Shown: positions 6,153 to 46,469 of the stretch, one piece after another
Numbering within the stretch: the first letter of the stretch is position 1
How the letters are laid out: each line of letters begins with the position of its first letter
From: an uncultured bacterium
GTDB lineage: Bacteria; Fidelibacterota; Marinisomatia; Marinisomatales; Marinisomataceae
Reading direction: 5' to 3'
DNA length: 64,000 nucleotides
Assembly: GCA_943788675.1 (NCBI GenBank)
Contig: CALSRE010000001.1
Location: 361,400 to 425,399 of the forward strand
The notes under the pieces: generated by a model
The model's database searches: none
What the model was told of the DNA's origin: nothing
The model's input: the letters and a program-made list of their open reading frames with translations, nothing else
Program-made: the position numbers and the translations under genes

Positions 6153-6226
6153 GGTGACTGTAGCTCAGTTGGTAGAGCCATCGGTTGTGGTCCGATTGGT
6201 CGTCGGTTCGAGTCCGATCAGTCACC
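6153..6226 (+). tRNA. tRNA-His (GTG)
   Basis: The cloverleaf folds with acceptor GTGACTG (6154-6160) pairing with CAGTCAC (6219-6225). The anticodon loop TTGTGGT carries GTG. A G at -1 (6153) sits opposite C73 (6226), the identity element of histidine tRNA. CCA is not encoded. Confidence 0.95.
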
Positions 6227-6238
6227 CGCAAAAATTTT

Positions 6239-6313
6239 CGGGGTGTAGCGTAGTCCGGTTAGCGCACCTGCTTTGGGAGCAGGGGGTCGCAGGTTCAAAT
6301 CCTGCCACCCCGA
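6239..6313 (+). tRNA. tRNA-Pro (TGG), integration target
   Basis: Acceptor CGGGGTG (6239-6245) pairs with CACCCCG (6306-6312), discriminator A at 6313. The anticodon stem is CCTGC/GCAGG around loop TTTGGGA, anticodon TGG at 6274-6276. From the last base of the 5' anticodon stem onward its sequence is repeated exactly at 15997-16041, so the 3' half of this gene is the left attachment site of an integrated element and was probably supplied by that element. CCA is not encoded. Confidence 0.96.
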
Positions 6314-6315
6314 CA
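6271..6315 (+). repeat. attL, 45-bp direct repeat
   Basis: This stretch runs from the anticodon stem to 2 nt past the end of tRNA-Pro. It is identical over 45 bases to 15997-16041; the flanking bases differ on both sides. Confidence 0.95.
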
Positions 6316-6361
6316 TTATCAATTCTATGAGGAATTAGACAAGTTATACAGGGAAAAAGAG

Positions 6362-6388
6362 AGGCTACTTCGGTAGCCTTTCTTGTTA
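6362..6388 (+). terminator. Rho-independent terminator after the tRNAs
   Basis: The stem AGGCTAC / GTAGCCT encloses a UUCG-type tetraloop (6369-6372) and is followed by a T-rich stretch. It lies inside the element just past attL, so it would end tRNA-His/tRNA-Pro transcription and insulate the cargo from it. Confidence 0.8.
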
Positions 6389-6425
6389 TTATAATACTTC
6401 ATATATAATCAAACTCTATTATAAA

Positions 6426-6448
6426 ATGGTGTTAATAATGGTGTTAAT
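6426..6448 (+). repeat. Tandem ATGGTGTTAAT motif near attL
   Basis: Two copies of ATGGTGTTAAT lie 12 bp apart (6426-6436 and 6438-6448). A very similar copy lies near attR (15936-15947, TTGGTGTTAATA) and another at 11366-11377 (ATGGTATTAATA). Placement near both ends suggests arm-type integrase or excisionase sites, but this is inference. Confidence 0.5.
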
Positions 6449-6453
6449 TTAGG

Positions 6454-6484
6454 CGAACGACAAACCGATAGGTTTGATCGTGAG
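6454..6484 (+). repeat. Element hairpin, copy 1
   Basis: ACGA-CAAACC, loop GATA, then GGTTTG, one bulged A, and TCGT (6457-6481), flanked by CGA and GAG. The same architecture with compensatory changes occurs at 13110-13142 and 14785-14815. This copy lies upstream of the cargo repeat and is not directly in front of a start codon. Confidence 0.75.
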
Positions 6485-6507
6485 CCTTACTCTTACTTTC
6501 AATCTCA

Positions 6508-6597
6508 AATTTTCAACCTAAAATTCTCAACCTAAACAAGAAAAGAGGGTGGGTAGGGTAGTAGTATATCTTGTGTACACATTCTAAAATAATTTTT
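6508..6597 (+). repeat. Cargo-flanking direct repeat, left copy
   Basis: Bases 6508-6557 are identical to 11442-11491 (50 bp). After a diverged middle, 6583-6597 is identical to 11517-11531 (15 bp) at exactly the same offset of 4934, so the whole ~90-bp block is homologous without gaps. Inside it TCAACCTAAA occurs twice 14 bp apart, followed by a G-rich run. The block stands ahead of cusB and its twin stands ahead of the next transcription unit, so it may hold a shared promoter or a recombination site. Across 6316-6689 I see no gene; only the terminator, motifs, hairpin and this repeat. Confidence 0.85.
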
Positions 6598-6689
6598 TGT
6601 AAGTTTTTATATAGTCGTTTACTTTTATACATTACTAACTTCAAGCAGAGTTATTAAAACATCAATTATAAAGGTTAAAATATAAAATT

Positions 6690-8228
6690 ATGAAAATTTT
6701 TAAAATAATATTTGTTATAGCAATAGTTTCAATCTTTACTATAACATCTTGTAAAGATACAAAACCAAAATCAGAGACTACTGAAGACTACAGTCACGCA
6801 CACGATATCCACCATGACACTCGCGTTGGAGAAGAAAATCCACGTTTAGACTATACCATTTGGACGGATAAAACCGAATTATTTGTAGAATTTCCTGCAT
6901 TGACAGTTGGCAGTCCAAGCAGATTTGCAGCCCATTTTACGGTGTTGGATAAGCACCAATCTGTTCGTGAAGGTTCGGTTACAGTTAGTTTAATTAAAGG
7001 TGATAAAGGATTGCGAAACACTGTTGATGTACCTTCATCGCCAGGGATATTTTTGCCCACAATTCAACCTGAAGAAACTGGAACATATCAACTTGTTTTT
7101 GAGTTAACAACACCTGAATATTCCGATAAGATTACGATTGATGATGTAACTGTTTATGCAAATGCCGATGATGCTATTAAAGCGTTAGGGATTACCAAAG
7201 AAGATGGGAGCATTTCGTTCTTAAAAGAACAGGCTTGGAAAATCGATTTTCAAACCGCATCTGTAATTTCGGATAAAATTTATGATGTCATCAATACTTC
7301 TGGTGTTTGGATGCCGTCACAAGGTTCTGTAAAATCTTTGGCAGCAACATCCAACGGAGTGGTTGATTTTCAAATGAATAATCTCACGGAAGGCACAGTA
7401 GTAAAACAAGGTCAGTTATTGATGAGCTTGAGCAGTCAAGGGTTAGCATATAACAATTTGAGTAATGAAATTACCAATGCTCTTGCCAATTTTGAACAGG
7501 CAAAATCTGAATACGAACGTAAAAAGGAATTGTACAATTCTAAAATTATTCCGAAGTCAGATTTTGAAAAAGTGGAGAGCAATTTTGCGATAGCAAAATC
7601 AAACTATCAATCGTTGACATCGGGAGTTTTAGGTGGAAGCAAACAAATTCGTGCACCATTTAATGGCTTTATTAAGTCTATTACAGTTTCCAATGGCGAT
7701 TATGTAGAACAAGGTGTGGCATTGGCAACTATCGGCACGAATCAATCCAAAGTACTAAAAACCCAATTAGCACCAAGTTATGGGCTTACAATGGCGAATG
7801 TACAGGGTATTTGGTATCAAACCAAAGACGGAAAATGGAAAAACGTAACAGATGCCGCAGGTAAAATTCTCTCTATTGATATAGAGGTGGAGCGAGAAAA
7901 TCCATTGATTTCAGTTTTTGCACAAGTGAATGCAGATGTGGATATGCCAGAAGGCAGTTTAACCCAAGTACAAATAGCGATGGGCAATGCTACGCAAAAT
8001 ACAATAATTCCTGTTAATGCCTTATTGGAAGACTATGGAAGTTATTCAGTTATCGTGCAACTTTCAGGCGAAAGCTTTGAAAGACGAGCTATAAAGATTG
8101 GAAAACGAAATGGCGAAAATGTAGAAATCCTGCAAGGTTTGAAAGTAGGCGAAGTGGTTGTTACAACAGGATCTTACCAAGTTAAAATGGCTTCAATGTC
8201 TGGTTCAACACCTGCACACGGTCACTAG
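6690..8228 (+). CDS. Heavy-metal RND efflux periplasmic adaptor (CusB type), lipoprotein
   Basis: The 512-residue protein is the membrane-fusion subunit that links an RND pump to an outer-membrane channel. It has a lipoprotein signal with Cys at residue 21 (TITSC), a His-rich stretch (SHAHDIHH, 35-42) right after it, an N-terminal beta domain seen in Bacteroidota-type adaptors, a barrel-sandwich/coiled-coil part around 190-350 (YERKKELYNSKIIPKSDFEKVE is shortened hairpin; FNGFI and NGDYVEQG lipoyl-like motifs), and a C-terminal domain ending in HGH. It is 18 nt upstream of the pump gene. Resemblance to flavobacterial adaptors suggests horizontal transfer. The exported metal (Cu, Zn, Co or Ag) cannot be fixed from sequence alone. 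Confidence 0.88.
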   Translation: MKIFKIIFVIAIVSIFTITSCKDTKPKSETTEDYSHAHDIHHDTRVGEENPRLDYTIWTDKTELFVEFPALTVGSPSRFAAHFTVLDKHQSVREGSVTVSLIKGDKGLRNTVDVPSSPGIFLPTIQPEETGTYQLVFELTTPEYSDKITIDDVTVYANADDAIKALGITKEDGSISFLKEQAWKIDFQTASVISDKIYDVINTSGVWMPSQGSVKSLAATSNGVVDFQMNNLTEGTVVKQGQLLMSLSSQGLAYNNLSNEITNALANFEQAKSEYERKKELYNSKIIPKSDFEKVESNFAIAKSNYQSLTSGVLGGSKQIRAPFNGFIKSITVSNGDYVEQGVALATIGTNQSKVLKTQLAPSYGLTMANVQGIWYQTKDGKWKNVTDAAGKILSIDIEVERENPLISVFAQVNADVDMPEGSLTQVQIAMGNATQNTIIPVNALLEDYGSYSVIVQLSGESFERRAIKIGKRNGENVEILQGLKVGEVVVTTGSYQVKMASMSGSTPAHGH

Positions 8229-8246
8229 GATTAAAAACAGAAGAAA

Positions 8247-11200
8247 ATGTTAAACAAAATATTATCAATTTCACTTCAAAATAGATTACTCATTCTATTG
8301 GGAGCGGTTGCATTGAGTGTATTGGGTGCGTATTCCGCACGCACGATGAATATTGACGTGTTCCCAGACCTTACAGCACCAACCGTGACCATCCTTACCG
8401 AAGCTCACGGAATGGAATCTGAAGAAGTAGAAAAATTAGTTACCTATCAACTGGAAACAGCCTTAAATGGTTCGCCAAATATGAGAAGGATTCGTTCTTC
8501 ATCCGCAGCAGGAATTTCCATTGTTTGGATAGATTTTGAATGGGGAACCGATATTTATCGGGCACGACAAATTGTAAGTGAACGCATCCCGATGGTTCGT
8601 GAAAACTTACCCGCAGGTACTGGAGCACCAACTATGGCACCCATATCATCCATTATGGGCGGAATAATGATGTTGGGTGTAACGTCTGATAGTTTGTCAG
8701 CAATGGAATTAAGAACTTTATCAGATTGGACAATTCGCCCACAAATAAAAGCAATTAGTGGTGTTGCTAATGTGGTGGTCCTTGGTGGCGATTATAAGCA
8801 ATATCAAGTATTTGCGAATCCTGAAAAGATGAAGCATTACAATGTAAGTCTTTCAGAATTGGTAGAACAAGTAAAAGAGGCTAACAAAAATGCGCCAGGT
8901 GGTGTGATTAATCAATATGGTAATCAATACATCCTTAAAGGCAGTGGAAGAGCTTATGCTTTAGAAGATTTGCAGGAAGCTGTTTTAAAACAAGTCAATG
9001 GGCAAACCATAAAAATTAAGGATGTAGCAACCGTACAAATTGGTGCAGCCGATAAAATTGGAGATGGATCTTTAAATGCAAAACCAGCAGTCATTTTAAC
9101 CATTTCAAAACAACCTGAAGTCAATATATTGGAATTGACAGATAGATTGGATGAAGCTATTGTCGATTTACAAAAAACCTTGCCCAAAGGTGTCAACATC
9201 AACAGTCATATCTTTAGACAATCCGATTTTATTGATGCGTCTATCAGCAATTTAAATCAAACTTTGCTGGAAGGTGCATTCTTTGTAATGATAACTCTTT
9301 TCATCTTTTTGATGAATTGGAGAACAACCTTAATATCCTTATTGGCAATTCCTATTTCATTATTGGTGTCCATTATCATTTTACAGTGGTTAGGCTATAC
9401 TATTAACACAATGAGTTTAGGAGGCATGGCAATTGCTATTGGTGCTTTGGTAGATGATGCAATTATTGATGTGGAGAATGTATATAAACGCTTGCGTGAA
9501 AATATTAGAAAACCAAAAGCAGAACGTGAATCAATTATTACAGTTGTACGTGATGCTTCGGTAGAAATACGAAGCTCAATCATCATTGCAACCCTAATTA
9601 TTATAGTATCGTTTATTCCATTATTCTTTTTAAGCGGAATGGAAGGTCGTTTGCTGCAACCTCTTGGAATTGCATTTATTACTTCAGTCTTAGCATCACT
9701 GGTTGTAGCTGTAACTGTAACACCTGTTTTATGTTCTTATTTATTGGATAATGAAAAGCTTTTAAATAAACAAGCCGAAGGTACACGTGTTGAACGTTGG
9801 TTACAAAAACATTATGGAAACCTCTTGGAACGTGCTAATAAAATTCCGAAAACCATTATCGGAACGACTGTTATCTCTTTTATCATAAGTCTGTTAGTTT
9901 TAACCCAATTAGGAAGAAGTTTTCTACCCGAATTTAATGAAGGATCACTGGTAATAAGTGTTGTTGGTCTGCCAGCAATGTCTTTAGAAGAAAGCAGCAA
10001 AACAGGAAAACTAATGGAGACAATTTTATTGGATTTACCTGAAGTAGAAGTCGTGACACGAAGACAAGGTCGCGCCGAATTGGACGAACACGTACAAAGT
10101 GTAAATGCTTTTGAACTTGATGCTCCTTTTGTTTTAAAAAACAAAACTAAAGAAGATTTTTTTGAAGAAGTCCGAAACAAATTGAGTATTGCGCCAGGTG
10201 TTAATGTTACTTTGGGACAACCCATTGCACACCGAATTGACCATATGCTTTCGGGTACACGTGCCAATATTGCCATCAAAATATTTGGTTCAGATTTACA
10301 GCGTCTGTTTGAAGTTGGAAAAAGTGTGGAACAGAATATCAAAACAATAGATGGATTAGTAGATGTAGCAGTAGACCAACAGATTGAAGTGCCACAGATT
10401 CGCATCCAACCAAAACGCCAAATGCTTTCTGCCTATGGAATGACGGTAGGTAATTTAATGGAGCAATTCGATATTGCTTTTGCAGGTGAAGAAGTAGGCG
10501 AAATTTATGAAGGTCAGCAGTATTTTGATTTGGTAGTTCGCTATGAAAAACCATTTCGAGATAATATTGAAAACATTGGAAACACCTTAATCAGTTTACC
10601 AAATGGAGGTCAAACTACTTTGGGCGAATTGGCAACGGTTGCTTCAGTAAGCAGTCCCAACACGATTAATCGAGAAGGTGTGCAACGTAAAATTGTAGTG
10701 GCCGCCAATGTTCAAGGTAGGGATTTACGTGGAGCGGTAAACGAAATAAAGGAAGTTGTTGCCAAGAATGTAATAATGCCAGAAGGCTATCGTGTGCAAT
10801 ATGGAGGACAGTTTGAAAGCGAATCGAAAGCATCGCGATTACTTATGATAACCGCAATTATTGCAATAGGAATTATATTTCTGTTGCTCTATTACGAATT
10901 TCAAAATATAAAACTGGCATTTGTAGTGCTAATCAATCTACCATTGGCCTTAATTGGTGGTATCTTGATTGTGTATTTTACATCAGGTATTATCAGTATT
11001 GCATCAACTATCGGTTTTATTAGTTTGTTTGGAATAGCCAGTCGTAACGGAATCCTATTGGTTTCTCGTTACGAAGATTTGAGAAAAGAAGGAATGAAAG
11101 GATTTCAGTTAATCAAAACAGGAGCATTGGACAGATTGAATCCAATCCTAATGACAGCCCTTACAACAGGTTTGGCATTAGTACCATTGGCATTGAAAGG

Positions 11201-11327
11201 CGGAGAATCAGGAAGTGAAATACAAAGCCCAATGGCTATAGTAATTTTAGGAGGGTTGTTGTCCGCTACGGTTTTAAATCTGGTAGTTATTCCTTGTGTG
11301 TATCAATTGGTTATTAGAAAACAGTAG
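8247..11327 (+). CDS. Heavy-metal efflux RND transporter (CusA/CzcA type)
   Basis: The 1026-residue inner-membrane pump exports metal ions driven by protons. It shows the HME-RND pattern: N-terminal helix followed by DVFPDLTAPTVT, two large periplasmic loops, and twelve membrane helices. The TM4 segment GALVDDAIIDVENV (near residues 398-411) carries the paired acidic residues of the proton relay. The C terminus GGLLSATVLNLVVIPCVY is typical. Length is normal for the family. No outer-membrane factor and no sensor kinase or regulator gene is present in the element, so it must borrow a host TolC-like channel. By eye the base composition is clearly more GC-rich than that of the surrounding genes. 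Confidence 0.93.
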   Translation: MLNKILSISLQNRLLILLGAVALSVLGAYSARTMNIDVFPDLTAPTVTILTEAHGMESEEVEKLVTYQLETALNGSPNMRRIRSSSAAGISIVWIDFEWGTDIYRARQIVSERIPMVRENLPAGTGAPTMAPISSIMGGIMMLGVTSDSLSAMELRTLSDWTIRPQIKAISGVANVVVLGGDYKQYQVFANPEKMKHYNVSLSELVEQVKEANKNAPGGVINQYGNQYILKGSGRAYALEDLQEAVLKQVNGQTIKIKDVATVQIGAADKIGDGSLNAKPAVILTISKQPEVNILELTDRLDEAIVDLQKTLPKGVNINSHIFRQSDFIDASISNLNQTLLEGAFFVMITLFIFLMNWRTTLISLLAIPISLLVSIIILQWLGYTINTMSLGGMAIAIGALVDDAIIDVENVYKRLRENIRKPKAERESIITVVRDASVEIRSSIIIATLIIIVSFIPLFFLSGMEGRLLQPLGIAFITSVLASLVVAVTVTPVLCSYLLDNEKLLNKQAEGTRVERWLQKHYGNLLERANKIPKTIIGTTVISFIISLLVLTQLGRSFLPEFNEGSLVISVVGLPAMSLEESSKTGKLMETILLDLPEVEVVTRRQGRAELDEHVQSVNAFELDAPFVLKNKTKEDFFEEVRNKLSIAPGVNVTLGQPIAHRIDHMLSGTRANIAIKIFGSDLQRLFEVGKSVEQNIKTIDGLVDVAVDQQIEVPQIRIQPKRQMLSAYGMTVGNLMEQFDIAFAGEEVGEIYEGQQYFDLVVRYEKPFRDNIENIGNTLISLPNGGQTTLGELATVASVSSPNTINREGVQRKIVVAANVQGRDLRGAVNEIKEVVAKNVIMPEGYRVQYGGQFESESKASRLLMITAIIAIGIIFLLLYYEFQNIKLAFVVLINLPLALIGGILIVYFTSGIISIASTIGFISLFGIASRNGILLVSRYEDLRKEGMKGFQLIKTGALDRLNPILMTALTTGLALVPLALKGGESGSEIQSPMAIVILGGLLSATVLNLVVIPCVYQLVIRKQ

Positions 11328-11338
11328 TTTTTATTACA

Positions 11339-11366
11339 TAATAATCCCTTAAAAGAACTTATTATA
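11339..11366 (+). terminator. Weak AT stem after cusA
   Basis: ATAATAA and TTATTAT can pair around a 14-nt loop just past the pump stop codon. It lacks a GC-rich stem and T tract, so it is only a possible transcription end. Confidence 0.25.
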
Positions 11367-11421
11367 TGGTATTAATAATTAATTAGCGAACAAGTCACCC
11401 TGAAATAGTGACCTTGTAAGC
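11366..11421 (+). repeat. Second boundary module: ATGGTATTAATA motif plus bulged hairpin
   Basis: ATGGTATTAATA (11366-11377) is followed by GCGAAC and an imperfect stem in which CAAG-TCAC pairs with GTGA-C-CTTG, leaving one unpaired C on the 3' side. The order motif, GCGAAC, bulged hairpin, then the 50-bp repeat copies the layout at 6426-6557 at the other end of the cargo, although the hairpin sequence differs. Confidence 0.5.
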
Positions 11422-11441
11422 GATTGATTCAACTATATCTG

Positions 11442-11531
11442 AATTTTCAACCTAAAATTCTCAACCTAAACAAGAAAAGAGGGTGGGTAGGTTTGATATA
11501 TAAAAGGCACACACAATCTAAAATAATTTTT
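11442..11531 (+). repeat. Cargo-flanking direct repeat, right copy
   Basis: 11442-11491 equals 6508-6557 base for base, and 11517-11531 equals 6583-6597. Both lie at the same spacing of 4934 bp. Together the two copies enclose cusB-cusA. The rest of 11328-11713 holds no gene; it contains the motif and hairpin just upstream, a DnaA-box-like site and an inverted repeat. Confidence 0.85.
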
Positions 11532-11546
11532 AGAAAATTTTACACT

Positions 11547-11609
11547 TGTGGATAACAGGGGAATAACAATTCGCCATTAATTAGTCGGATTTAGACATTT
11601 AACGACTAA
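11547..11609 (+). promoter_or_regulatory. DnaA-box-like site and inverted repeat (possible origin or operator)
   Basis: TGTGGATAA at 11547-11555 is the exact complement of the consensus DnaA box TTATCCACA. Downstream, TTAGTCG (11581-11587) and CGACTAA (11603-11609) form an inverted repeat. They lie upstream of the large unknown gene at 11714. A single box is weak evidence; an origin or a repressor site are both possible. Confidence 0.3.
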
Positions 11610-11713
11610 ACGAGAGGGGCATACTGCACATATAATCACAATTACCTATATAAAATCTTTACACTTTCTATACAAAACTTGACTCAAACAAAAAAAATAA
11701 GGTAGGTTGCATA

Positions 11714-12886
11714 ATGTCTGAAAAAAGTAAAGAGATTATAACACCAAAGGGTAATAAGATTAAGATTACCTACCACGATAAGTTTCATTATACAGATGCA
11801 CTTGGTAATAGAAAAGAAATAGAGGGTAAGGAATTATTTTCTGATTTATTTGATGCTACTGATATTATCAAAGATGTTAGACAACTTATATCACTTCACA
11901 TATTCCATAGGCAAGGTCTGTATCAATTAGAACCTGTGTTAAGAGCAAAGTCTTGTATGGATAATCTTTGGTGGATAGAACATAAACTTTACAATATGAA
12001 CTTTGCTTTCAATCTATCGGGTGTATTTGATGATAAGAATAGACAATTATTAGAGGATTCGTTTGCAGACTACCAACCTATCTATGATGAATCAGACCAT
12101 AAATATATTCTTGATTTGCATATAGAGATAGCAACTAAAGAGGATAATTGGCAACTCTATCTATCATTAAAAGAACAGTACTTGGAAAAGGTTAGTACTC
12201 TACTGCAGTTTGATGCAGTACCAAGTCATATAGATTTAAGCGAGGATTCACTTAACTATCACGAGAACGAAAGAAAAGAATTTGAATCAAAGAAAGCAAA
12301 GGTCTATGAGTTTACTACTGATGATGCAAGATTATGCTTTGAGTGGTTGATTGACCCTAAAAATAATAGACAAGATGTACCCTATGAATTAATGATGATG
12401 ATGAATAAAAGAAGTCAATTCAGAACAAGATTTAATAGGTGGTTTGATAAACTGCATATGACACATACACCACCAATAGATTTAGAACAACATTATGAAA
12501 AGTTAGAAACTGCACTTCATAACAATCCTGTTAAGATTATAGATTTACCAAGCCCGAGATTTGATTATGCTTTAGGTAAACCTTTCCATATTCTTTTCTA
12601 CAATCTGTTATTCAATAAATTCAAACATTGGTTTGATAGAAAGAACGAAAGAGGATTGGTAGTACAATGGCAAGAGATTGGTACTAAAGATGTAAAGATG
12701 CCACACTTGATACTGCTTGATAAGAACTTTGAAAACAGATTAGCAGAACAAAATAGACAAGATAAACTACTTGAGGAAAGAGTAGCAGATATGGAAATAG
12801 ACCACTTTAAAGATATGACTATAGATGAGGCTATGAAGTGGGTCAAAGAAATCAATCCAATCAATGATGATATAGAAATTATCTAA
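11714..12886 (+). CDS. Unrecognised element protein, 390 residues
   Basis: This is the largest backbone gene of the element and I do not recognise its family. The start has a plausible ribosome site (AAGGTAGG, 9 nt upstream). The product is soluble, charged, rich in Asp, Lys and aromatic residues, with no signal peptide or membrane helix, and is predicted mostly helical with a charged C-terminal part (about 345-390). No Walker, HUH, RNase H or DDE motif is visible. It sits alone between the cargo repeat and the xis-like operon, near a DnaA-box-like site, so a replication or copy-control role is conceivable but not shown. Codon use is AT-rich like the other backbone genes and unlike cusA. Confidence 0.8.
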   Translation: MSEKSKEIITPKGNKIKITYHDKFHYTDALGNRKEIEGKELFSDLFDATDIIKDVRQLISLHIFHRQGLYQLEPVLRAKSCMDNLWWIEHKLYNMNFAFNLSGVFDDKNRQLLEDSFADYQPIYDESDHKYILDLHIEIATKEDNWQLYLSLKEQYLEKVSTLLQFDAVPSHIDLSEDSLNYHENERKEFESKKAKVYEFTTDDARLCFEWLIDPKNNRQDVPYELMMMMNKRSQFRTRFNRWFDKLHMTHTPPIDLEQHYEKLETALHNNPVKIIDLPSPRFDYALGKPFHILFYNLLFNKFKHWFDRKNERGLVVQWQEIGTKDVKMPHLILLDKNFENRLAEQNRQDKLLEERVADMEIDHFKDMTIDEAMKWVKEINPINDDIEII

Positions 12887-13022
12887 CCTGTTAAACAACG
12901 ATAACAGGGAATCTATGACCGAACTCGGTTTCAAATCGGGTGTAATCGGTTATCATAACAACAAATAACAACAAAAGACTACATATAGTAGAGTGTAGGG
13001 ATTAATACTTACACTACCCTAC
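12887..13022 (+). promoter_or_regulatory. Cluster of inverted repeats downstream of the 390-residue gene
   Basis: CCTGTTA (12887-12893) pairs perfectly with TAACAGG (12902-12908), directly after the stop codon. Further on, AGTGTA (12992-12997) can pair with TACACT (13010-13015), while the overlapping GTAGGG (12995-13000) can pair with CCCTAC (13017-13022), so the last two stems exclude one another. They could act as terminator/antiterminator or operator sequences. Apart from these and hairpin copy 2, 12887-13151 has no gene. Confidence 0.35.
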
Positions 13023-13109
13023 TTGTATGGTATTATAGATATATACTTCTACTTGTGTTCGCCAATTTCGGCACTTCTGTATGGTTAAGTATAAGTTAAT
13101 CAATCAAGA

Positions 13110-13142
13110 CGAACGACAAACTCGTAAGAGTTTGATCGTGAG
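13110..13142 (+). repeat. Element hairpin, copy 2 (before the xis-like gene)
   Basis: ACGA-CAAACTC, loop GTAA, GAGTTTG, bulged A, TCGT (13113-13139), flanked by CGA and GAGG. The inner helix is one pair longer than in copies 1 and 3. The trailing GAGG lies 8 nt before the GTG start at 13152 and can serve as the Shine-Dalgarno sequence, so the hairpin may control translation. Confidence 0.75.
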
Positions 13143-13151
13143 GCTTGGAAA

Positions 13152-13343
13152 GTGAATAAGAAAATGCAGAAATATGCAAAAGATGAACAATACTTATCTA
13201 TTAAAGAGGCTAAAGAATATACCACAATGTCTTACAATGCTTTAAAGAAAGCAGTAAAACTTGGTCATTTACAATCAACCTTTGTTAATGGTAGATATGT
13301 ATTCAAACTCAAGTGGTTAGATGCTTGGTTAGGTGGTAAATAA
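13152..13343 (+). CDS. Excisionase-like helix-turn-helix protein
   Basis: The 63-residue product reads YLSIKEAKEY-TTMSYNALKKAVKLG-HL followed by a short beta wing and KLKWLDAWL, the pattern of small MerR-like/HTH_17 excisionase proteins that bind DNA and direct integrase toward excision. The start is GTG with GAGG 8 nt upstream, placed right after the conserved hairpin. The TAA stop shares a base with the next ATG (TAATG), so it heads a coupled operon of three genes. Xis function is inferred from fold, size and the company of an integrase; a transcriptional regulator is the alternative. Confidence 0.7.
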   Translation: MNKKMQKYAKDEQYLSIKEAKEYTTMSYNALKKAVKLGHLQSTFVNGRYVFKLKWLDAWLGGK

Positions 13344-13666
13344 TGAACAATTACTTTATCGCTTGGCAAGAATATCCAAGACAAACAGGCTTTGGTGGTT
13401 GGTTTAGAGTCTATACCGACAATCCCGAAATAGCCTACAACATAAGACAAAGAAAGAAAAGTAGTGAGTGTATCATTACAGGCGAAAAGGCTTATCTATT
13501 TCAGATAAAATTTATCAATAAAGAAAAAGCCCTTAATTCGTTCAACACATTATTAGCACGATATAACTATCCAAAACTAAAATATAATGCCAAGAACGAG
13601 GAATTTACTTCCAATATGCCACCTAATCTCAATCCTAAAAAGAAAGAGAGGTATATAAATGCCTAA
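13343..13666 (+). CDS. Unrecognised element protein, 107 residues
   Basis: I do not recognise this protein. It is soluble, with no signal peptide or membrane segment, and has alternating beta-like (YFIAWQEY, FRVYTD, AYLFQIKFI) and helical (KALNSFNTLLARY) stretches that suggest a small alpha/beta fold. The C terminus is Lys-rich. It starts inside the stop of the xis-like gene and overlaps the next gene by 8 nt, so it is co-translated with both; that coupling argues that it is real and works with them. Confidence 0.7.
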   Translation: MNNYFIAWQEYPRQTGFGGWFRVYTDNPEIAYNIRQRKKSSECIITGEKAYLFQIKFINKEKALNSFNTLLARYNYPKLKYNAKNEEFTSNMPPNLNPKKKERYINA

Positions 13667-14252
13667 TAAAGTAATGTTCTCGCAAGATGAAAAAGAAATG
13701 CTACTACCATACGATTCATTTACTCAAATGGTTTATGTGTTAGGAATTAAGTTTGGTTGTGATTGGTGGGGTGTATGTAGAAATGATATATTAGAACTCA
13801 CAAGTCATATAAATCCTGATGCACAAATTGACCAAGATAGAATACAGAAGTCATTAGATAACTTACACGATACAGGATTGATTGAATACATAGGTCAAAA
13901 CAATAGCCTAATCGTTGTTAAAGACTTTGGTATGGTTAATGAGTTTGGATTTCTTAAGACCAATCATAGTAAGAAAGCAAATGGTAGTGAGTCTAAATGG
14001 TTAATTCATATCAAGGTTGCTATTAAGAGTGGCGAATTACCACCATACTTTTTAGAAATTCCAAGTATCCTTATGGCAAAGAAAAAGGAATTTATAGAAC
14101 GATATGAAAGTGGTACTCTAAAAATGATGACCTACTATGATAGGAATAAAAAGATAGAAAGAAACTATTACGATTCCTTGATGTACAAAGACCTTTATCA
14201 TTGGTATCAAGAATCAAAACAGAAAGGGGAATCAAATGAACAACCTTTCTAA
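13659..14252 (+). CDS. Unrecognised element protein with winged-helix-like segment, 197 residues
   Basis: The N-terminal half (about residues 20-90) reads like a winged helix: a helix around MVYVLGIKFGC, then DILELTSHI, a recognition-like helix DRIQKSLDNLHDTGLIEYI and a beta wing NSLIVVKDFG. This layout is common in replication initiators and regulators of plasmids and phage satellites. The C-terminal half is rich in Lys, Tyr and Glu. No catalytic motif is visible. It overlaps the upstream gene by 8 nt and the next by 17 nt. A replication-initiation or regulatory role is a guess from the domain layout. Confidence 0.68.
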   Translation: MPNKVMFSQDEKEMLLPYDSFTQMVYVLGIKFGCDWWGVCRNDILELTSHINPDAQIDQDRIQKSLDNLHDTGLIEYIGQNNSLIVVKDFGMVNEFGFLKTNHSKKANGSESKWLIHIKVAIKSGELPPYFLEIPSILMAKKKEFIERYESGTLKMMTYYDRNKKIERNYYDSLMYKDLYHWYQESKQKGESNEQPF

Positions 14253-14502
14253 ATTCACAAGTACAAGAACAAGTATAGTTAAATACATAGTAAACAATAG
14301 CAATAGAGTTAGACTTAAACTTTTACTTATACTTACACTTGTACTTATACACTATTCTATAAAGAATAACCTTATAATTAATACAATAGTCGTTAATGGT
14401 ACTTTAGTGTGGAATACCATTACTCGTATGGTGTTAAATCTGTATCCACTCTATAGGGGTGTCTATGGAGGTGTCTGGGTTGGGTCTGGTAATTATGCTT
14501 AA
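14236..14502 (+). CDS. Possible small membrane protein overlapping hexamer repeats (doubtful)
   Basis: An 88-codon frame begins 6 nt after a good ribosome site (AAAGGGGA) within the end of the previous gene. It would encode one hydrophobic segment (about residues 28-42, LKLLLILTLVLIHYS). That segment is encoded by an ACTTNN hexamer array, so the hydrophobicity may be a by-product of a DNA repeat. The C terminus overlaps the next gene. No family is recognised. It may be a real small membrane protein or a non-coding region with iterons. Confidence 0.35.
   Translation: MNNLSKFTSTRTSIVKYIVNNSNRVRLKLLLILTLVLIHYSIKNNLIINTIVVNGTLVWNTITRMVLNLYPLYRGVYGGVWVGSGNYA
14257..14348 (+). repeat. Inverted hexamer arrays (ACAAGN and ACTTNN)
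   Basis: Three hexamers ACAAGT, ACAAGA, ACAAGT lie end to end at 14257-14274. Six hexamers of the form ACTTNN run at 14313-14348, among them ACTTGT, the complement of ACAAGT. The two arrays are thus in opposite orientation about 40 bp apart and could fold on each other or act as iteron-like binding sites. Confidence 0.5.
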
Positions 14503-14725
14503 ATATTACACAAACACTCAATTAAGAAAGATACTTGGTTGTTCTCAATCCACACTTGATAGACAACTAAAGACTATGCGAATAAAGGTTTTGCGATTTG
14601 GTTCAAATGGATTACCAAGATATAATTCCTATGATGTTCATAGCAACATAGAGTATGGTACTTCTTATGATTCATTAATGACACACCAAAAGCAAAGAAT
14701 AAAGGAAATGTTGAGTAATGATTAA
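14465..14725 (+). CDS. Small helix-turn-helix protein of the element
   Basis: The body reads YYTNTQLRKILGCSQSTLDR, a helix-turn-helix with a typical CSQSTLDRQLK recognition helix, followed by a wing-like GSNGLPRYNSYDV. It is a DNA-binding protein of regulator or excisionase size. I chose the ATG at 14465, with AGGGG about 6 nt upstream; GTG at 14459 and ATG at 14495 are alternatives, and the HTH fold begins only after the last of these. It lies between the hexamer arrays and the integrase and probably regulates one of them. Family not identified beyond the fold. Confidence 0.65.
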   Translation: MEVSGLGLVIMLKYYTNTQLRKILGCSQSTLDRQLKTMRIKVLRFGSNGLPRYNSYDVHSNIEYGTSYDSLMTHQKQRIKEMLSND

Positions 14726-14784
14726 GTATTCATTAACTTTAGTTTCCCTGTATTTCTTGTCTTTGGTTCGCTTTGACAAACAAC

Positions 14785-14815
14785 CGAACGACAAGCCGAT
14801 AGGCTTGATCGTGAG
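14785..14815 (+). repeat. Element hairpin, copy 3 (before integrase)
   Basis: ACGA-CAAGCC, loop GATA, GGCTTG, bulged A, TCGT (14788-14812), then GAGG. Compared with copy 1 an A-T pair has become G-C, which keeps the stem paired. The integrase start is at 14837, 22 nt downstream, with its own AAGGAAAGG in between. Confidence 0.75.
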
Positions 14816-14836
14816 GATTAAAGGAAAGGCGAAATA

Positions 14837-15934
14837 ATGAGTGTTCTTAAACCAAATCATACTTTGGTAAATGGTAAGTACAAACGATTCAATTACTATC
14901 TTATGGTATCATTACCAACAGGTAAAGTAAGAATCACATTACCTAATACAAAAGACGATAAGAGATTAGCCAATAGATTACAACATAAGGCTAATGCACT
15001 TGAGAAACGAGCAAGAGAGTTCCCTACTGATAAAGATTGGTATGTAGAACTGCATAAGGAATTAGGATTAGAACATAAACTTCCTAATTACAACTTGGAT
15101 AAACATACAATCAAATCTGCTTGGAATCAGATGTTAGATAGTAAGCGATTGCTTAAAGATGTAAACAAAGAATCTACATTAGACTTCTATAGATTCTCAA
15201 AGCAACTGCTGTTAGAAGTGATTGGTAATATCCCTTTAGAGATGTTATCACTACAACATAAATCACAGATAGAACAAGCAGTAGGTAAAACTGATTGGTC
15301 TGATACTACCAAGAATATGAGAGTAAGATACATTAATACTTTCTTAATATGGTGTTATGATAATCAACTGATTGATAAGATACCTTTCAAATTACAGTTA
15401 ATTAAAACAACACCAAGAAGTAAGACTTGGATAAGTGAACAAGACTTTAATCTAATCTGTTCTGTGTCTGACCCTGTGTATGTGGCATACTTTACGATTG
15501 CTTACAATACAGGGTTAAGACTTCGTGAATTAAATACTAACCCTAATGACAAGGCTTACAAAGGTCTTTACCATACCATAAGCAGACAAGATAACTTATG
15601 GCAACTTAAAGTCTATGGTAAGCAAGGCAAAGAGGGATTGGTAATATTAGATGACGATTTAAAGCCTGTCTATGATGTGATGACTGCTAATAGAGTACAC
15701 CCGAGAACTATTACCAAGAAGTTTAAACAAGCCTGTAAAGATGTAGGGTTTGATAACTTTAGATTCCACGACTTAAGACATAGTTTCTGTCAAAACTTGG
15801 CTATGACAACTAACGATTCTGTTCTATTAAGATTACAGATGAGGCATAGTACCATTTCTACCACAGAAAACTACTTAAAAGATGACCGATTTAATTGGTC
15901 TAAATTAGTGGAAAATAAGAGATATGAGGGGTAA
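14837..15934 (+). CDS. int: Tyrosine recombinase (site-specific integrase)
   Basis: The 365-residue protein catalyses integration and excision of the element at the tRNA-Pro attachment site. The catalytic set is visible: Arg in TGLRLREL near 228, His-x-x-Arg in HDLRH near 311-314, His in QMRHSTIS near 336, and the nucleophile Tyr in TTENYLK near 345. The N-terminal part (about 1-190) holds an arm-binding and a SAM-like core-binding domain. It ends 62 nt before attR, at the end of the element opposite the intact tRNA. An upstream bulged hairpin with GAGG suggests shared control with the xis-like gene. Confidence 0.94.
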   Translation: MSVLKPNHTLVNGKYKRFNYYLMVSLPTGKVRITLPNTKDDKRLANRLQHKANALEKRAREFPTDKDWYVELHKELGLEHKLPNYNLDKHTIKSAWNQMLDSKRLLKDVNKESTLDFYRFSKQLLLEVIGNIPLEMLSLQHKSQIEQAVGKTDWSDTTKNMRVRYINTFLIWCYDNQLIDKIPFKLQLIKTTPRSKTWISEQDFNLICSVSDPVYVAYFTIAYNTGLRLRELNTNPNDKAYKGLYHTISRQDNLWQLKVYGKQGKEGLVILDDDLKPVYDVMTANRVHPRTITKKFKQACKDVGFDNFRFHDLRHSFCQNLAMTTNDSVLLRLQMRHSTISTTENYLKDDRFNWSKLVENKRYEG

Positions 15935-15935
15935 A

Positions 15936-15958
15936 TTGGTGTTAATAGCGAACTAATT
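15936..15958 (+). repeat. Right-end TTGGTGTTAATA motif and small hairpin
   Basis: TTGGTGTTAATA (15936-15947) repeats the motif found twice near attL, again followed by GCGAA, which here pairs with TTCGC (GCGAA-CTAAT-TTCGC). Likely an integrase arm or excisionase site close to attR. Confidence 0.45.
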
Positions 15959-15996
15959 TCGCAGAATTTGATAATTTATAGACGAGATGCCCTGTT

Positions 15997-16041
15997 CTTT
16001 GGGAGCAGGGGGTCGCAGGTTCAAATCCTGCCACCCCGACA
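15997..16041 (+). repeat. attR, 45-bp direct repeat (orphan tRNA-Pro 3' half)
   Basis: Identical to 6271-6315. It contains the anticodon loop TTTGGGA, T arm and acceptor 3' strand of tRNA-Pro but has no 5' half upstream, so it cannot make a tRNA. It marks the original host sequence displaced by integration. Confidence 0.95.
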
Positions 16042-16067
16042 AATTCAAATTATTCGTAGATTGTAAT

Positions 16068-16931
16068 ATGACATTTTTAAAAAAGACAATAAGCCATAAT
16101 CAAAAGATAGAGCTTTACAAATTCACTGGAGAAAGTTTTGTTAATCTACCTGAGAATTATCATAATGAAGATGCTGTAAAAGTATGCTTTCTAGATCTTG
16201 AGACAACTGGCCTTAATAAGCAACAATGTAAAATCATTGAATTTGCAGCAAAGTTAACTGCAATTGATAAAAATAGTGGAGAACTATTGGGGGTTATTAA
16301 TAGTTATCAATCATTCAATGACCCAGAAGAAAGCATCGGAGCAGAAATTACCAGAGTAACAGGTATTACAGACGATGATGTAAAGGGACATTCTTTAGAT
16401 TGGGAGTTGGTTTCTACATTAATAGGAAATGCTGACATCATTGTTGCTCATAATGCTAATTTTGATCGTGCTTTTATGGATAGGTATTTGCCACTTTCAA
16501 AAGATAAAGTGTGGGTATGTTCTGTAAATGATATTAATTGGACTGAGCGAGGTTTTGGTGCTAAAGGTCAGGAAATTTTATGTATATGGCACGGTTTCTA
16601 TTATGAATCACATCGTGCGATGTATGATGTAGATGCACTAATTCATTTAGTAACACATGATATTGAAGGAGTAAGCAAAGCATCGTTAGAGCTATTAGAA
16701 AATGCAGCAAATCCAAGCTACATAATTGCCGCTTTAAACAGCCCTTTTGAAACCAAAGATATTCTAAAGGCCAGAAAGTATCGCTGGAATCCAGAAAAAA
16801 GATACTGGTGGAAAAAAGTACTATTTGAAGAAATTGAAATTGAAAAAGAATGGATGGCTGATAATATTTACAACGGTCATTTTCAAGGCAAGGTTGATGA
16901 AATTGGCTTTACAGAAAAGTATAAAAATTAA
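16068..16931 (+). CDS. DnaQ-like 3'-5' exonuclease
   Basis: The 287-residue protein has the DEDDh exonuclease pattern: DLETTG (D and E near 43-45), HNANFD (D near 133) and H-x4-D in HRAMYDVD (near 182-187). This fold trims single-stranded 3' ends, as the proofreading subunit of DNA polymerase III or as a stand-alone nuclease. The C-terminal ~70 residues (KARKYRWNPEKRYWWKK) form a basic aromatic extension found in some stand-alone members. The frame is open farther upstream to 15987, but those codons come from attR, so the ATG at 16068 is the start. It is the first host gene after the element. Confidence 0.88.
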   Translation: MTFLKKTISHNQKIELYKFTGESFVNLPENYHNEDAVKVCFLDLETTGLNKQQCKIIEFAAKLTAIDKNSGELLGVINSYQSFNDPEESIGAEITRVTGITDDDVKGHSLDWELVSTLIGNADIIVAHNANFDRAFMDRYLPLSKDKVWVCSVNDINWTERGFGAKGQEILCIWHGFYYESHRAMYDVDALIHLVTHDIEGVSKASLELLENAANPSYIIAALNSPFETKDILKARKYRWNPEKRYWWKKVLFEEIEIEKEWMADNIYNGHFQGKVDEIGFTEKYKN

Positions 16932-17024
16932 TATTTTGTTGTCCATTATTTAAAAGTTGCATAAAAAAATATGCAAGCATTCTAAAATATCAATATTGCA
17001 AAAAACAAATTAGAAGGACTATAT

Positions 17025-17159
17025 ATGGATTATAAAAATAGCGTTTGGTTTAAAATAGAAAGATTTTTTGATAGGCATAATCATTTAATGGAGTTTATAA
17101 GAACTCTTATAGCATTACTTGTTTTATTTTTACAATTTTATATTTTAACAAGACTATAA
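17025..17159 (+). CDS. Small single-span membrane protein, 44 residues
   Basis: ATG at 17025 follows AGAAGGA with good spacing. The product begins with a charged, aromatic stretch (WFKIERFFDRHNH) and ends with one hydrophobic helix of about 18 residues (LIALLVLFLQFYI). No family is recognised; size and layout resemble small regulatory or complex-stabilising membrane peptides. The rest of 16932-17387 shows nothing coding, and 17160-17387 is plain AT-rich spacer. Confidence 0.55.
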   Translation: MDYKNSVWFKIERFFDRHNHLMEFIRTLIALLVLFLQFYILTRL

Positions 17160-17387
17160 TAAAAGTGAAAAAATTAGAAAATTCAAAGTGTCCAAAGGTT
17201 AAAAAATAAATAATTACAGTTATTATGAAGCCAAAAAATCTTTACTTGTCATTTTAAGGGTAAAGTTAATAAGATTATATTATTTGAAAATTATAAATCC
17301 TAAAAACAAAGTAATCATCTGTATTAATAGCATTAATACTTAATGACAAATCATACCACAGAATATTATAGTTTAGTAATTTAACTT

Positions 17388-17831
17388 ATGTATTTATTGT
17401 TCCTAGTTTTTCTTACACAGGTTACTCTAGCACAAGAGAATTTAGAAATTTCACTAAGTTTGACAGTAGTTAATTACAATGAATTGTTAAAAAATAATAA
17501 TATTTTTATCTTAAATAATAGTTTAGAACCATATTCTGGCGATGTATTTGTATCTGATTCTTTGAACAAAATCATTTTAAAAGGAAGTATGAATAATGGA
17601 AAAGCTGTTGGAGAATGGACACATTTTTTTGAAGATGGCAACGTGCACGCTTTTTTTAATATAGAAAATAATAAATTGAATGGAGAATTTAAGGAATATT
17701 ACCTAAATAATAATCTATACAAAGAGGGAAATTTTTTAAATGGGGAAATGGATGGAGTATGGAATTTATATAATTTAAATGGTCAACTTCTTTTTTCGAT
17801 CGAATATGAAAATGGCAAGGTTAAATACTAG
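17388..17831 (+). CDS. Secreted MORN-repeat protein
   Basis: The 147-residue product has a signal peptide ending at LAQ (residues 1-15) and, from about residue 70, repeated units of the form GEWTHFFEDGNVHAFFNIE, GEFKEYYLNNNLYKEGNF, GVWNLYNLNGQLLFSIEY. These are MORN-like (YwqK-type) repeats that form a stacked beta sheet. Such proteins are exported or surface-associated in Bacteroidota and relatives; their partner is usually unknown. It stands alone between the small membrane gene and the Trp-rich protein. Confidence 0.8.
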   Translation: MYLLFLVFLTQVTLAQENLEISLSLTVVNYNELLKNNNIFILNNSLEPYSGDVFVSDSLNKIILKGSMNNGKAVGEWTHFFEDGNVHAFFNIENNKLNGEFKEYYLNNNLYKEGNFLNGEMDGVWNLYNLNGQLLFSIEYENGKVKY

Positions 17832-17844
17832 CTCTGAGTAATAA

Positions 17845-18048
17845 ATGAAGCATTTAAAAAATTCCAAATGGACAGCAATTAAAAAAATTAAAAATTGGCG
17901 TCACTTTGAAGTAATAAATATTTATAAAAAAGAAAAAAAAGTGGAAATGTTCTCTGTATGTGATAAAAAAATCAGAATTGAAGTTTCGTTTAAAGATTTA
18001 AAAAATCAAATGAAGTGGCATAGTGGCTGGGTTGAAATTGTAGATTAG
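17845..18048 (+). CDS. Trp-rich small protein (TIGR02450-like)
   Basis: The 67-residue protein carries the pattern SKWTAI...WRHFEVI...VEMFSVCDKKIRIEV...WHSGWVEI, which matches the small tryptophan-rich family known as TIGR02450. The function of that family is unknown; members are short cytoplasmic proteins found mainly in marine and photosynthetic bacteria. It follows the MORN protein by 13 nt and precedes the LOG gene by 30 nt. Confidence 0.75.
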   Translation: MKHLKNSKWTAIKKIKNWRHFEVINIYKKEKKVEMFSVCDKKIRIEVSFKDLKNQMKWHSGWVEIVD

Positions 18049-18078
18049 GATAATTATGTATATATTGGTGTTCATTGA

Positions 18079-18744
18079 ATGAAAGTAAAGCAAGAAAAAG
18101 TAAGAAAATTTTTATCTAAGCAGATTCAAGAACTTAGTAGTATCGTAGCTGATCTCGATGATCTCGTCACGGAAATTGGGACTGAATACTACAGGGTAGC
18201 AATTTTTGGTTCAGCAAGAATTCAAGAAGATACTCCAGAATATAAAAGTGTTTATAATTTGGCAAAAAGTCTTGCGCAAAATGGAGCAGATATTGTTACT
18301 GGCGGTGGACCTGGATTGATGGAGGCTGCAAATGCTGGTGCCAAAGAAGGTAGCAAAAAAACAAAATCATTTGGATTGAGAATTGATTTACCATTTGAAT
18401 CAGGTTTTAACGATCATATAGATATTAAATTTTTTCATAAGAAATTCTCTTCTAGACTAGATGAATTTATGCGCATAAGCAATGCTGTAGTGGTAACTCC
18501 TGGTGGAATTGGCACATTGTTAGAGTTGTATTATGCGTGGCAGCTTATGCAGGTTGGTCATATAAAAGAAAGGCCAATTATTTTAGTTGGAAAAATGTGG
18601 CAAGGATTGATTGATTGGATGAAAGAAAATCCACTTAAAAAAGAATTGATAGATCAGAAAGATATCAATCAGATTCAAATTGTTGAAAAAATGGAAGATG
18701 TTGTTCTAATTCTCCAAAAAGAAATTGAAGCTTTTTATAAATAA
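18079..18744 (+). CDS. LOG family protein (nucleotide 5'-monophosphate phosphoribohydrolase type)
   Basis: The 221-residue protein has a Rossmann-like fold and the two LOG signatures GGGPGLMEAANAGA (near 75-88) and PGGIGTLLE (near 140-148, the PGGxGTxxE motif). Members cleave the N-glycosidic bond of cytokinin riboside monophosphates or of ordinary NMPs such as AMP; older annotation as lysine decarboxylase is wrong. An N-terminal helical extension of about 35 residues precedes the core. It lies 9 nt before the aldo-keto reductase gene. The true substrate here is unknown. Confidence 0.88.
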   Translation: MKVKQEKVRKFLSKQIQELSSIVADLDDLVTEIGTEYYRVAIFGSARIQEDTPEYKSVYNLAKSLAQNGADIVTGGGPGLMEAANAGAKEGSKKTKSFGLRIDLPFESGFNDHIDIKFFHKKFSSRLDEFMRISNAVVVTPGGIGTLLELYYAWQLMQVGHIKERPIILVGKMWQGLIDWMKENPLKKELIDQKDINQIQIVEKMEDVVLILQKEIEAFYK

Positions 18745-18753
18745 TAATTAAAA

Positions 18754-19782: not shown

Positions 19783-19785
19783 ATT

Positions 19786-20541
19786 ATGGGCTATGGATAT
19801 AACCCAATTGTTGGAAAAAACTGGCGTTATAACCCTGAAAAAACTTTTAAAATAAGTAGATCAAAAATTGAACTATATTTTAATTGTCCTACCTGTTTTT
19901 ATAAAGACGCCAAGCTCGGACTTAGAAAACCTCCCATGCCAGGGTGGGCAATAAATAGCGCAGTAGACGCATTGTTAAAAAAAGAAATGGATATATGCCG
20001 AGCCAAAGACAGACCCCATGGAATTTTTATTGAAAATGGATTAGACATCAAGCCATTTAAGCATGATGATATTGAGAAATGGCAAAATGCCTTTACTGGG
20101 ATTCAATATAAAGATACAGAACATAATTTTCTCCTATATGGTGGCGTGGATGATATCATGGTTGATAAAGATGGTAAGCTAGTTGTTATTGATTTTAAAG
20201 CCACTGCAAAAGCAGCAGATATCCTTTCTTCAGCAAATGTGTATAATAATGGTGAATCATACAAAAGACAGTTAGAGATTTATAGCTGGCTCTTGCAAAA
20301 AAATGGTTTTGAAGTATCTACAAAAGGATACTTAATGTATTATAATGGAGAAGCTTCAAGACCGCACCTTGGAAAACAGATGCACTTTAGAAGAACATTA
20401 GTGCCATTTGAGTTAAATACAAGTTGGATTAGTCCCATGATTTCAGAAATGTATGCTTGTCTTCAGAGGGATAAAATGCCCAAATATAATGATTCAAATT
20501 GTGAAGATTGTTTGTACTTAGCTACAATTGAAAAAATGTAA
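19786..20541 (+). CDS. PD-(D/E)XK nuclease family protein (RecB/Cas4-like)
   Basis: The 251-residue protein has the nuclease core: GGVDDIMVDKDGKLVVIDFKAT (split here: Asp in GVDD near 122 and Asp-x-Lys in DFK near 135-137), then the helix motif QLEIYSWLL (Q-x3-Y) of RecB-type nucleases. Two Cys pairs, CPTC (34-37) and CEDC (239-242), flank the core and could hold a zinc or Fe-S cluster as in Cas4 and AddB. No CRISPR array or cas gene lies near. It follows the reductase gene by 3 nt. A DNA end-processing role is likely; the partner is unknown. Confidence 0.8.
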   Translation: MGYGYNPIVGKNWRYNPEKTFKISRSKIELYFNCPTCFYKDAKLGLRKPPMPGWAINSAVDALLKKEMDICRAKDRPHGIFIENGLDIKPFKHDDIEKWQNAFTGIQYKDTEHNFLLYGGVDDIMVDKDGKLVVIDFKATAKAADILSSANVYNNGESYKRQLEIYSWLLQKNGFEVSTKGYLMYYNGEASRPHLGKQMHFRRTLVPFELNTSWISPMISEMYACLQRDKMPKYNDSNCEDCLYLATIEKM

Positions 20542-20542
20542 T

Positions 20543-46395: not shown

Positions 46396-46469
46396 GGGCG
46401 ATTAGCTCAGCTGGTCAGAGCGCCTGCTTTACACGCAGGATGTCGGGAGTTCGAATCTCTCATCGCCCA
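46396..46469 (+). tRNA. tRNA-Val (TAC)
   Basis: Acceptor GGGCGAT pairs with ATCGCCC, the stem CCTGC/GCAGG closes loop TTTACAC, anticodon TAC. CCA is not encoded. Confidence 0.95.

Follow-up and report, generated by a model that had tools for sequence, protein, structure and literature searches.

The window analysed here, i.e. a stretch of 64,000 nucleotides (nt) from the genome of an uncultured member of the Marinisomataceae (G000 in our numbering), harbours at positions 6271-16041 what is very probably a tRNA-Pro-directed integrative island, which would be able to excise and would depend on an outside vehicle for its spread. Its integration at the tRNA-Pro(TGG) gene is evident from a direct repeat and from empty sites in related genomes. 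The repeat, both copies of which are the 3' part of the tRNA gene (attL and attR, Table 1), is perfect over 45 bp, and the copies start 9,726 bp apart; a longer match between 6271-6322 and 15997-16048 shows 94 % identity, with the first 45 bases identical. A first-pass annotation made from the sequence alone had described an approximately 9.8-kb tRNA-directed integrative element with cargo between 45-bp perfect repeats of tRNA-Pro; the repeat was recovered as a 100 % match over 45 nt and, together with the integrase and the empty sites, bears out this description.

An uninterrupted tRNA-Pro site with joined flanks, proposed in that annotation as a check, was indeed seen in relatives. In G023 (L049), the tRNA-His/tRNA-Pro pair is joined directly to the right flank of the window and the 45 bp occur once, and since this empty site was read base by base, the insertion is not a chance arrangement. 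Both flanks of the window also occur without the element in G010, G007, G013 and G015 (L050-L053), i.e. in five genomes in total. The tRNA-Pro gene was matched in 20 of the 24 genomes of the genus. In the census of its 3' flanks (n=17 including the window; G001, G006 and G011 were left out), two were occupied by such a left end (G000 and G012) and 13 were empty, the remaining two being a contig end in G021 (L198) and other sequence in G004 (L199). Some of the 13 empty sites differ in their neighbouring genes, and the window is therefore matched flank to flank by L049-L053 only. A second pair of occupied and empty sites is given by G012 (L097) and G018 (L200), with both flanks 87 % identical.

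The flanks of G000 and G023 differ in their similarity. The right flanks agree at 99.7 % over 4.5 kb (window 15997-20542, L049 9960-14505), with most 250-nt steps at 100 %, and the left flank ranges from 75 to 91 % per 250-nt step past the first 250 nt. The two levels of identity meet at the tRNA pair or close to it, which looks like a recent recombination tract starting at the att site. Since the left flank is only 88.8 % identical, the recency of the insertion is not proven.

All listed genes of the element lie on the + strand. Nine open reading frames (ORFs) were compared with Pfam and NCBIfam and seven with PHROGs, the RND pair being left out of the latter. The predicted tyrosine integrase was confirmed by PF00589 and phrog_1; its ORF contains the boxes TGLRLRE, HDLRH, MRH and ENY and ends 62 nt before attR, the recombinase thus lying inside the segment beside one border. 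Matches to it were found in 32 of 130 genomes of the order. Against the profile of IntI-type integron integrases (TIGR02249) it scored only 21.6 bits (cut-off 265), attC sites not having been sought. The gene called excisionase-like in the first-pass annotation does match HTH_17 and TIGR01764, but below the cut-offs of both profile libraries, and an excisionase function of the 63-aa protein is only suggestive. Likewise, the four or more proteins of no recognised family announced there were recovered in part: the 390-, 107- and 197-aa proteins belong here, but an 88-aa ORF at 14236 is doubtful, possibly not a gene, and the 75-aa protein shows a weak helix-turn-helix (HTH) match. A search of PDB sequences gave no match for the 390-aa protein and one for the 197-aa protein (E 1.7), and single-sequence structure predictions were of low confidence (mean pLDDT 40.2 and 33.7, respectively). 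The sole PADLOC match among six element proteins, mad1 to the 75-aa ORF (E 0.015), was not used. In an Rfam scan, only the two tRNAs scored above the gathering thresholds.

Table 1. Coordinates of the island, its target site and its end structures in the window
Feature	Position	Strand	Evidence
tRNA-His(gtg), left neighbour of target	6154-6227	+	tRNA search
tRNA-Pro(tgg), target gene, whole with the left end of the element attached	6239-6314	+	tRNA search, Rfam RF00005
attL core, 45-bp direct repeat (tRNA-Pro 3' part)	6271-6315	+	repeat search
Terminator-like hairpin, TTCGG loop and T run, recurring behind occupied tRNAs	6360-6385	+	sequence
Tandem 12-bp repeat AATGGTGTTAAT (x2), putative integrase arm sites	6425-6449	+	motif search
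Hairpin box copy 1, left end	6449-6489	+	pattern, fold, covariation
Leader copy 1 (100-nt core 6508-6607), probable RND promoter	6491-6612	+	repeat and similarity searches
RND periplasmic adaptor, CusB/CzcB-like, 512 aa	6690-8228	+	TIGR01730 127 bits, cut-off 94.9
RND permease, CusA/CzcA heavy-metal family, 1026 aa	8247-11327	+	TIGR00914 818.6 bits, cut-off 701.45
Internal TGGTATTAATA, one mismatch to arm motif	11367-11377	+	motif search
Leader copy 2, 5' of 390-aa gene	11425-11545	+	84 % identity to copy 1 over 100 nt
390-aa protein without detected relative	11714-12886	+	no match at E<0.01 in Pfam, PHROG, NCBIfam
Hairpin box copy 2, directly 5' of excisionase-like ORF	13105-13147	+	pattern, fold, model search
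HTH_17/excisionase-like protein, 63 aa	13152-13343	+	HTH_17 E 2.8e-4, TIGR01764 18.9 bits, both sub-threshold
107-aa protein without detected relative	13343-13666	+	no match at E<0.01 in Pfam, PHROG, NCBIfam
197-aa protein without detected relative	13659-14252	+	no profile match at E<0.01; N part winged-helix-like by eye only
75-aa weak HTH protein	14498-14725	+	profile scans
Hairpin box copy 3, directly 5' of integrase	14780-14820	+	pattern, fold, model search
Tyrosine integrase, 365 aa, open frame	14837-15934	+	PF00589 E 1.1e-11; phrog_1 E 4.2e-26
TGGTGTTAATA, putative right arm site	15937-15947	+	motif search
attR core, second 45-bp repeat copy	15997-16041	+	repeat search

The cargo is a predicted metal pump of the CusBA/CzcBA type, both the permease and the adaptor passing the NCBIfam cut-offs, as expected from the metal-type RND efflux pair read in the first-pass annotation. 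No outer-membrane channel family was matched among the ORFs of the segment in Pfam or NCBIfam. The RND pair has a G+C content of 37.4 %, compared with 32.7 % for 11542-15934 and 32.3 % outside the element. No donor of the pump is named here, because the best plasmid matches of the adaptor among those listed are only 26-34 % identical.

The earlier statement that the segment has no known transfer genes holds for the families scanned: none of the nine ORFs (Pfam, NCBIfam) or seven ORFs (PHROGs) matched relaxase or conjugation families, oriT not having been sought, and capsid, portal, terminase or tail genes were absent among the seven ORFs compared with PHROGs. In the mechanism that we propose, a circular form would be recombined by the tyrosine integrase into the 3' half of tRNA-Pro, and since the element brings a matching tRNA 3' end, the tRNA gene stays whole. 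Re-excision would involve the integrase and the small HTH protein as excisionase, with short end repeats as arm sites. Lacking recognised transfer machinery, the element would need a helper or a passive route for its spread, with phage packaging, vesicles, transformation or a mobilising conjugative element as candidate vehicles. Adaptor and permease, in turn, would be expressed from the leader, i.e. its probable promoter, and would work with a channel of the host.

Other islands of the genus share this type of end and carry different cargo, and several of them lack an integrase. In G012, the left end at tRNA-Pro is 92 % identical to that of the window over 180 nt, tRNA part included, and a second tRNA-Pro repeat follows 3.4 kb downstream (L097). 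The 60 nt before this second repeat are identical to those of the window at 37 of 60 positions, a value reached by none of 2000 shuffles and none of 610 60-mers from the cargo. Since the G012 element matches both ends, the same kind of ends bounds unrelated cargo, here a single 1038-aa lipoprotein with Big_9 and cadherin domains; neither a window-type integrase nor any other protein of the window element was found in this island, the PF00589 matches of G012 lying elsewhere.

Searching with the left end also revealed relatives directly behind intact tRNA-Val(gac) genes in G000 (L095), G012, G023, G005, G014 and G003, and directly behind tRNA-Val(tac) in G021, G014 and G016, to which the Val-type left end of L095 as query added G018, G004 and G019 (gac) as well as G011 and G001 (tac). 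The L095 query matched 15 of the 24 genomes at E<=1e-4. At E<=1e-6, part or all of the end was present in at least 13/24 genomes of the genus and at least 1/221 elsewhere in the phylum, both being lower bounds because only three candidates per genome were scored. Several matches of this query are partial, some covering little beyond the tRNA end and the terminator. In G009, the match of these searches had no adjoining tRNA in the stretch examined. Two matches in G008 (contig C4, E 7e-5) and G004 (contig C6, E 9.5e-5) were rejected, as they extend little beyond the terminator and adjoin no tRNA (the tRNA-Ala of L171 lies more than 3 kb off, and L172 contains none). A tally of 24 of 24 genomes at E<=1 consisted mostly of short chance matches and was replaced by the stricter searches.

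The second island in the genome of the window (L095, contig C2 62000-81999), behind a tRNA-Val(gac) at 12586-12660 of that stretch, has the same leaders and a run of small cargo genes, with neither a window-type integrase nor a second tRNA copy in the stretch read. Within the window itself, the tRNA-Val(tac) at 46396-46470 lacks a leader; all that was found behind it in this respect is a terminator-like match at 46657-46689. The tRNA is followed by a DEAD helicase gene (46752-47951) in the region up to 49136. In G016 (L105), an island lies between tRNA-Val(tac) and a gene resembling, by eye, window 48582-49136. L104 and L106 contain no tRNA; both carry leaders and a DEAD helicase gene like that behind the tRNA-Val(tac) of the window, and may be distal parts of islands at this site. 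Leader-bearing contigs with such a helicase belong to G021 and G009.

Two structures recur at the occupied left ends (n=17, i.e. 16 of the shared-end family and the unrelated tRNA-Arg element L161). TTCGG occurs within 120 nt behind the tRNA in 11/17 of them versus 0/13 empty sites, and a tandem repeat (9 bp or longer) located 60-200 nt behind the tRNA likewise in 11/17 versus 0/13, the controls being empty tRNA-Pro sites with no empty tRNA-Val site among them; for each tandem repeat, at most 2 of 300 shuffles were as good. Seven of the 11 best tandem repeats are arm-like and vary by target or element, i.e. AATGGTGTTAAT at tRNA-Pro, GGGTATACAATT, AATAGGTCTACA and AGGGTATAAA at tRNA-Val and TACCTACAACA in L161, while in the other four cases the best repeat is TTCTCAACC, which belongs to the leader. 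No tandem repeat was found in L103, L105, L166 or L168-L170. We infer that the tandem repeats serve as integrase arm sites. The element L161 (2576-9221, G012) lies at tRNA-Arg(tct) between 44-nt perfect repeats and carries a tyrosine integrase, a serine resolvase and a ParB_N-DruA fusion.

Several observations weigh against an integrase-driven island with arm sites. Besides the window, the best relative of the integrase is a 42 % identical fragment in G015, the others being remote (E 4.9e-13 or weaker); no relative was confirmed in viral or genome contigs, and none was found in phages (50,697 records) or plasmids. The putative excisionase is the sub-threshold match described above. Furthermore, the enrichment of TGGTGTTAATA is moderate, i.e. 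with one mismatch allowed it occurs seven times in the whole window versus 2.2 expected (at least seven in 1/100 shuffles), and the right end of the G012 mini-island shows no arm motif.

The RND cargo is bracketed by two copies of a leader of about 100 nt, which is probably a portable promoter. Among the 36 sequence sources searched, 21 copies were found at E<=1e-4. Behind 18/21 leaders, the next 200 nt contain the start of a same-strand ORF of 50 aa or more, compared with 56 % at random positions and with 3/21 on the other side and strand of the leader; measured from a position 10 nt short of where the leader match ends, such a start falls within 34 nt in 10/21 cases (random 19 %). With the minimum ORF length raised to 100 aa, the counts are 16/21 (within 200 nt), 7/21 (within 34 nt) and 3/21 (other side), with 36 % and 13 % at random for the former two. 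The genes following leaders include the RND pair, a HupE/UreJ-like gene, an acetyltransferase and repeat-rich lipoproteins, the non-RND names being based on ORF reading and not on searches. One leader copy (L206 827-937) comes from a different family of the order; the 12 kb examined there contain no tRNA, the contig starting 0.8 kb away. The islands may therefore have recruited the leader from an older type of promoter. The ORF behind this copy is cysteine-rich and metallothionein-like, a hint at a possibly metal-responsive leader.

Mini-islands are also found between tRNA-Val copies, the second copy being partial, i.e. in L103 (1.27 kb), L101 (1.0 kb) and L105 (5.5 kb). In L105, a 22-aa remnant of an integrase 3' end lies at the homologous place just before the right repeat (59 %, E 0.006). 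No second tRNA copy was found in the examined stretches of L095, L096, L098-L100, L102 and L166-L170, nor in a further 17.5 kb (L207) of the tRNA-Val(gac) island of the window's own genome. L097, L103 and L101 keep both att copies without a window-type integrase or PF00589 match, which fits cis-mobilizable elements (CIMEs), and the integrase-less relatives may be either decayed relatives or passengers. Of the ORFs of these three, the domain scan covered the cargo gene of L097, with the Big_9 and cadherin matches given above. As passengers, they would be moved in trans by integrases such as that of the window element, and the tRNA islands would act as slots, equipped with a portable promoter, in which cargo can be exchanged. 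The G012 island, matching both ends around nothing but a lipoprotein gene, the tRNA-Val mini-islands between their tRNA repeats and the preference of same-strand ORFs for one side of the leader all point in this direction; however, according to the available passages of PMC5704250 and PMC3146451, decay in place, i.e. CIME formation, yields the same layout without movement in trans, and L097 has no right arm motif. We regard such a shared-end system as less likely than not. Doubtful, too, is its extension to a modular cargo system, in which a shared end kit (terminator hairpin, integrase-matched arm repeats and att within the tRNA, at tRNA-Pro and two tRNA-Val genes) and the leader would let integrase-less modules enter, stack and be expressed, with rare complete elements such as that of the window as drivers in trans; this would be functionally integron-like, at tRNA genes. 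That cargo might be swapped by recombination between leaders is conjecture.

A further structure of the element is a hairpin box, defined by the pattern GAACGACAA...TTGATCGTGAG, of which the window contains three copies against an expectation of 0. All three lie inside the element, and the first precedes the first leader. In 244 other genomes of the phylum the exact pattern was found once more, in G021 (L061 9918-9958). The only IMG/VR contig with the pattern (L056) is G+C-rich and seemingly unrelated, and was taken as chance. The RNA folds of the window copies are strong (z -6.7, -4.9 and -6.7), with a GA/GA internal loop and a bulged A. Over the four copies, 94.6 % of cells are paired, as reached in 2/500 shuffles, and 3/14 pairs are changed on both sides (5/500 shuffles); the count of further pair types is unremarkable (118/500 shuffles), four related sequences being few for such an analysis. 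There was no Rfam match, and a model search over 33 sources added no place. The box may be an RNA regulator or a DNA operator, and co-regulation through it would be part of the mechanism proposed above.

The element could also be a phage satellite, in which the 390-, 197- and 107-aa proteins and the small HTH proteins would form a module for replication or for hijacking of packaging, and which would travel in phage capsids. Its size, the layout of integrase, excisionase-like and HTH genes and the lack of transfer genes do resemble minimal satellites, and other integrase-bearing stretches in the genus encode DUF5906/VapE-like domains (L165 110-6680, G023; L162 121-4212, G009), with an AEP-like (AEP-TOTE) primase domain in L165, both contigs being possible contaminants. 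On the other hand, PHROG matches at E<0.01 were limited to integrase, excisionase/HTH and unknown-function families, and no satellite hallmarks (primase, AlpA, packaging-interference genes) were recognised in the Pfam, PHROG and NCBIfam scans. Moreover, the 390-aa protein, like the integrase, has no relative in the phage records, and IMG/VR contigs contain no close relatives of the 390-, 365-, 197- or 107-aa proteins. While the genes of the 390-, 197- and 107-aa proteins could be of satellite type, a satellite is unlikely. Quite improbable is a relic of a once larger integrative and conjugative element (ICE), integrative and mobilizable element or prophage that lost its transfer genes, became fixed and was retained for its metal pump, as, although decay must be considered common in the genus because six end-sharing islands (L095, L096, L097, L101, L103 and L105) lack a whole integrase in the stretch read, the integrase and the other listed ORFs of the window element are open, its att copies are identical over 45 bp and its site is empty in G023 beside the almost identical right flank, the recency of insertion being unproven as stated above.

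Few mobile elements are expected in bacteria whose genomes are close to 1 Mb. Here, a complete tRNA island and its stripped relatives share ends and a promoter-like leader in a small-genomed host, and the att sites, leader and hairpin box offer a handle on gene gain by elements without recognised transfer genes. If the stripped relatives indeed move in trans, they would constitute a gene-capture system at tRNA genes. Judged from titles, no on-topic paper on integrative elements of Marinimicrobia, SAR406 or Marinisomatota was found in the open-licence literature, and neither was a description of ends that different cargo shares at three tRNAs, of the portable leader or of the hairpin box.

The first-pass annotation had proposed an undescribed type of element. 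The shared ends and leaders of the genus agree with this and the profile searches placed the proteins in no known prophage or ICE family, but as a genomic island that targets a tRNA gene and lacks recognised transfer genes, the element is of a known broad kind: islands at tRNA or tmRNA genes with a recombinase and without transfer genes are, as far as the available passages of PMC12595487, PMC3146451 and PMC10872708 go, a described and widespread class. Among them, Pseudomonas I55 and its relatives share tRNA/tmRNA 3'-end repeats, a terminal tyrosine integrase, a small regulator, varied cargo and the lack of transfer genes, as outlined in the extracts of PMC12595487; there, the cargo is phage defence, the site is tmRNA and I55 is moved by a jumbo phage, unlike the window element with its RND pump, tRNA-Pro site and lack of an AlpA family match in the profile scans. 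The layout of tycheposons, i.e. tRNA border, tyrosine recombinase, cargo and a size within 4-200 kb in a small-genome host, is found here as well, the targets being tRNA-Pro and tRNA-Val; the likeness to the Prochlorococcus tycheposons is one of general layout, as set by the description in the accessible part of PMC10872708. CIMEs, as characterised in the excerpts of PMC5704250, fit the integrase-less mini-islands with both att copies, whereas the window element keeps its integrase. The closest printed parallel found to the mini-islands is, going by the portions of PMC3146451 at hand, the ssrA islands of Dehalococcoides, which likewise combine target-gene repeats and shared integration features with discordant cargo, and of which 16 have an integration module and 15 do not, the latter being read as possible cis-mobilizable elements. 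While these use a serine recombinase in a six-gene module at ssrA, the family described here is characterised by a tyrosine integrase, three different tRNAs as targets and a common leader before the cargo.

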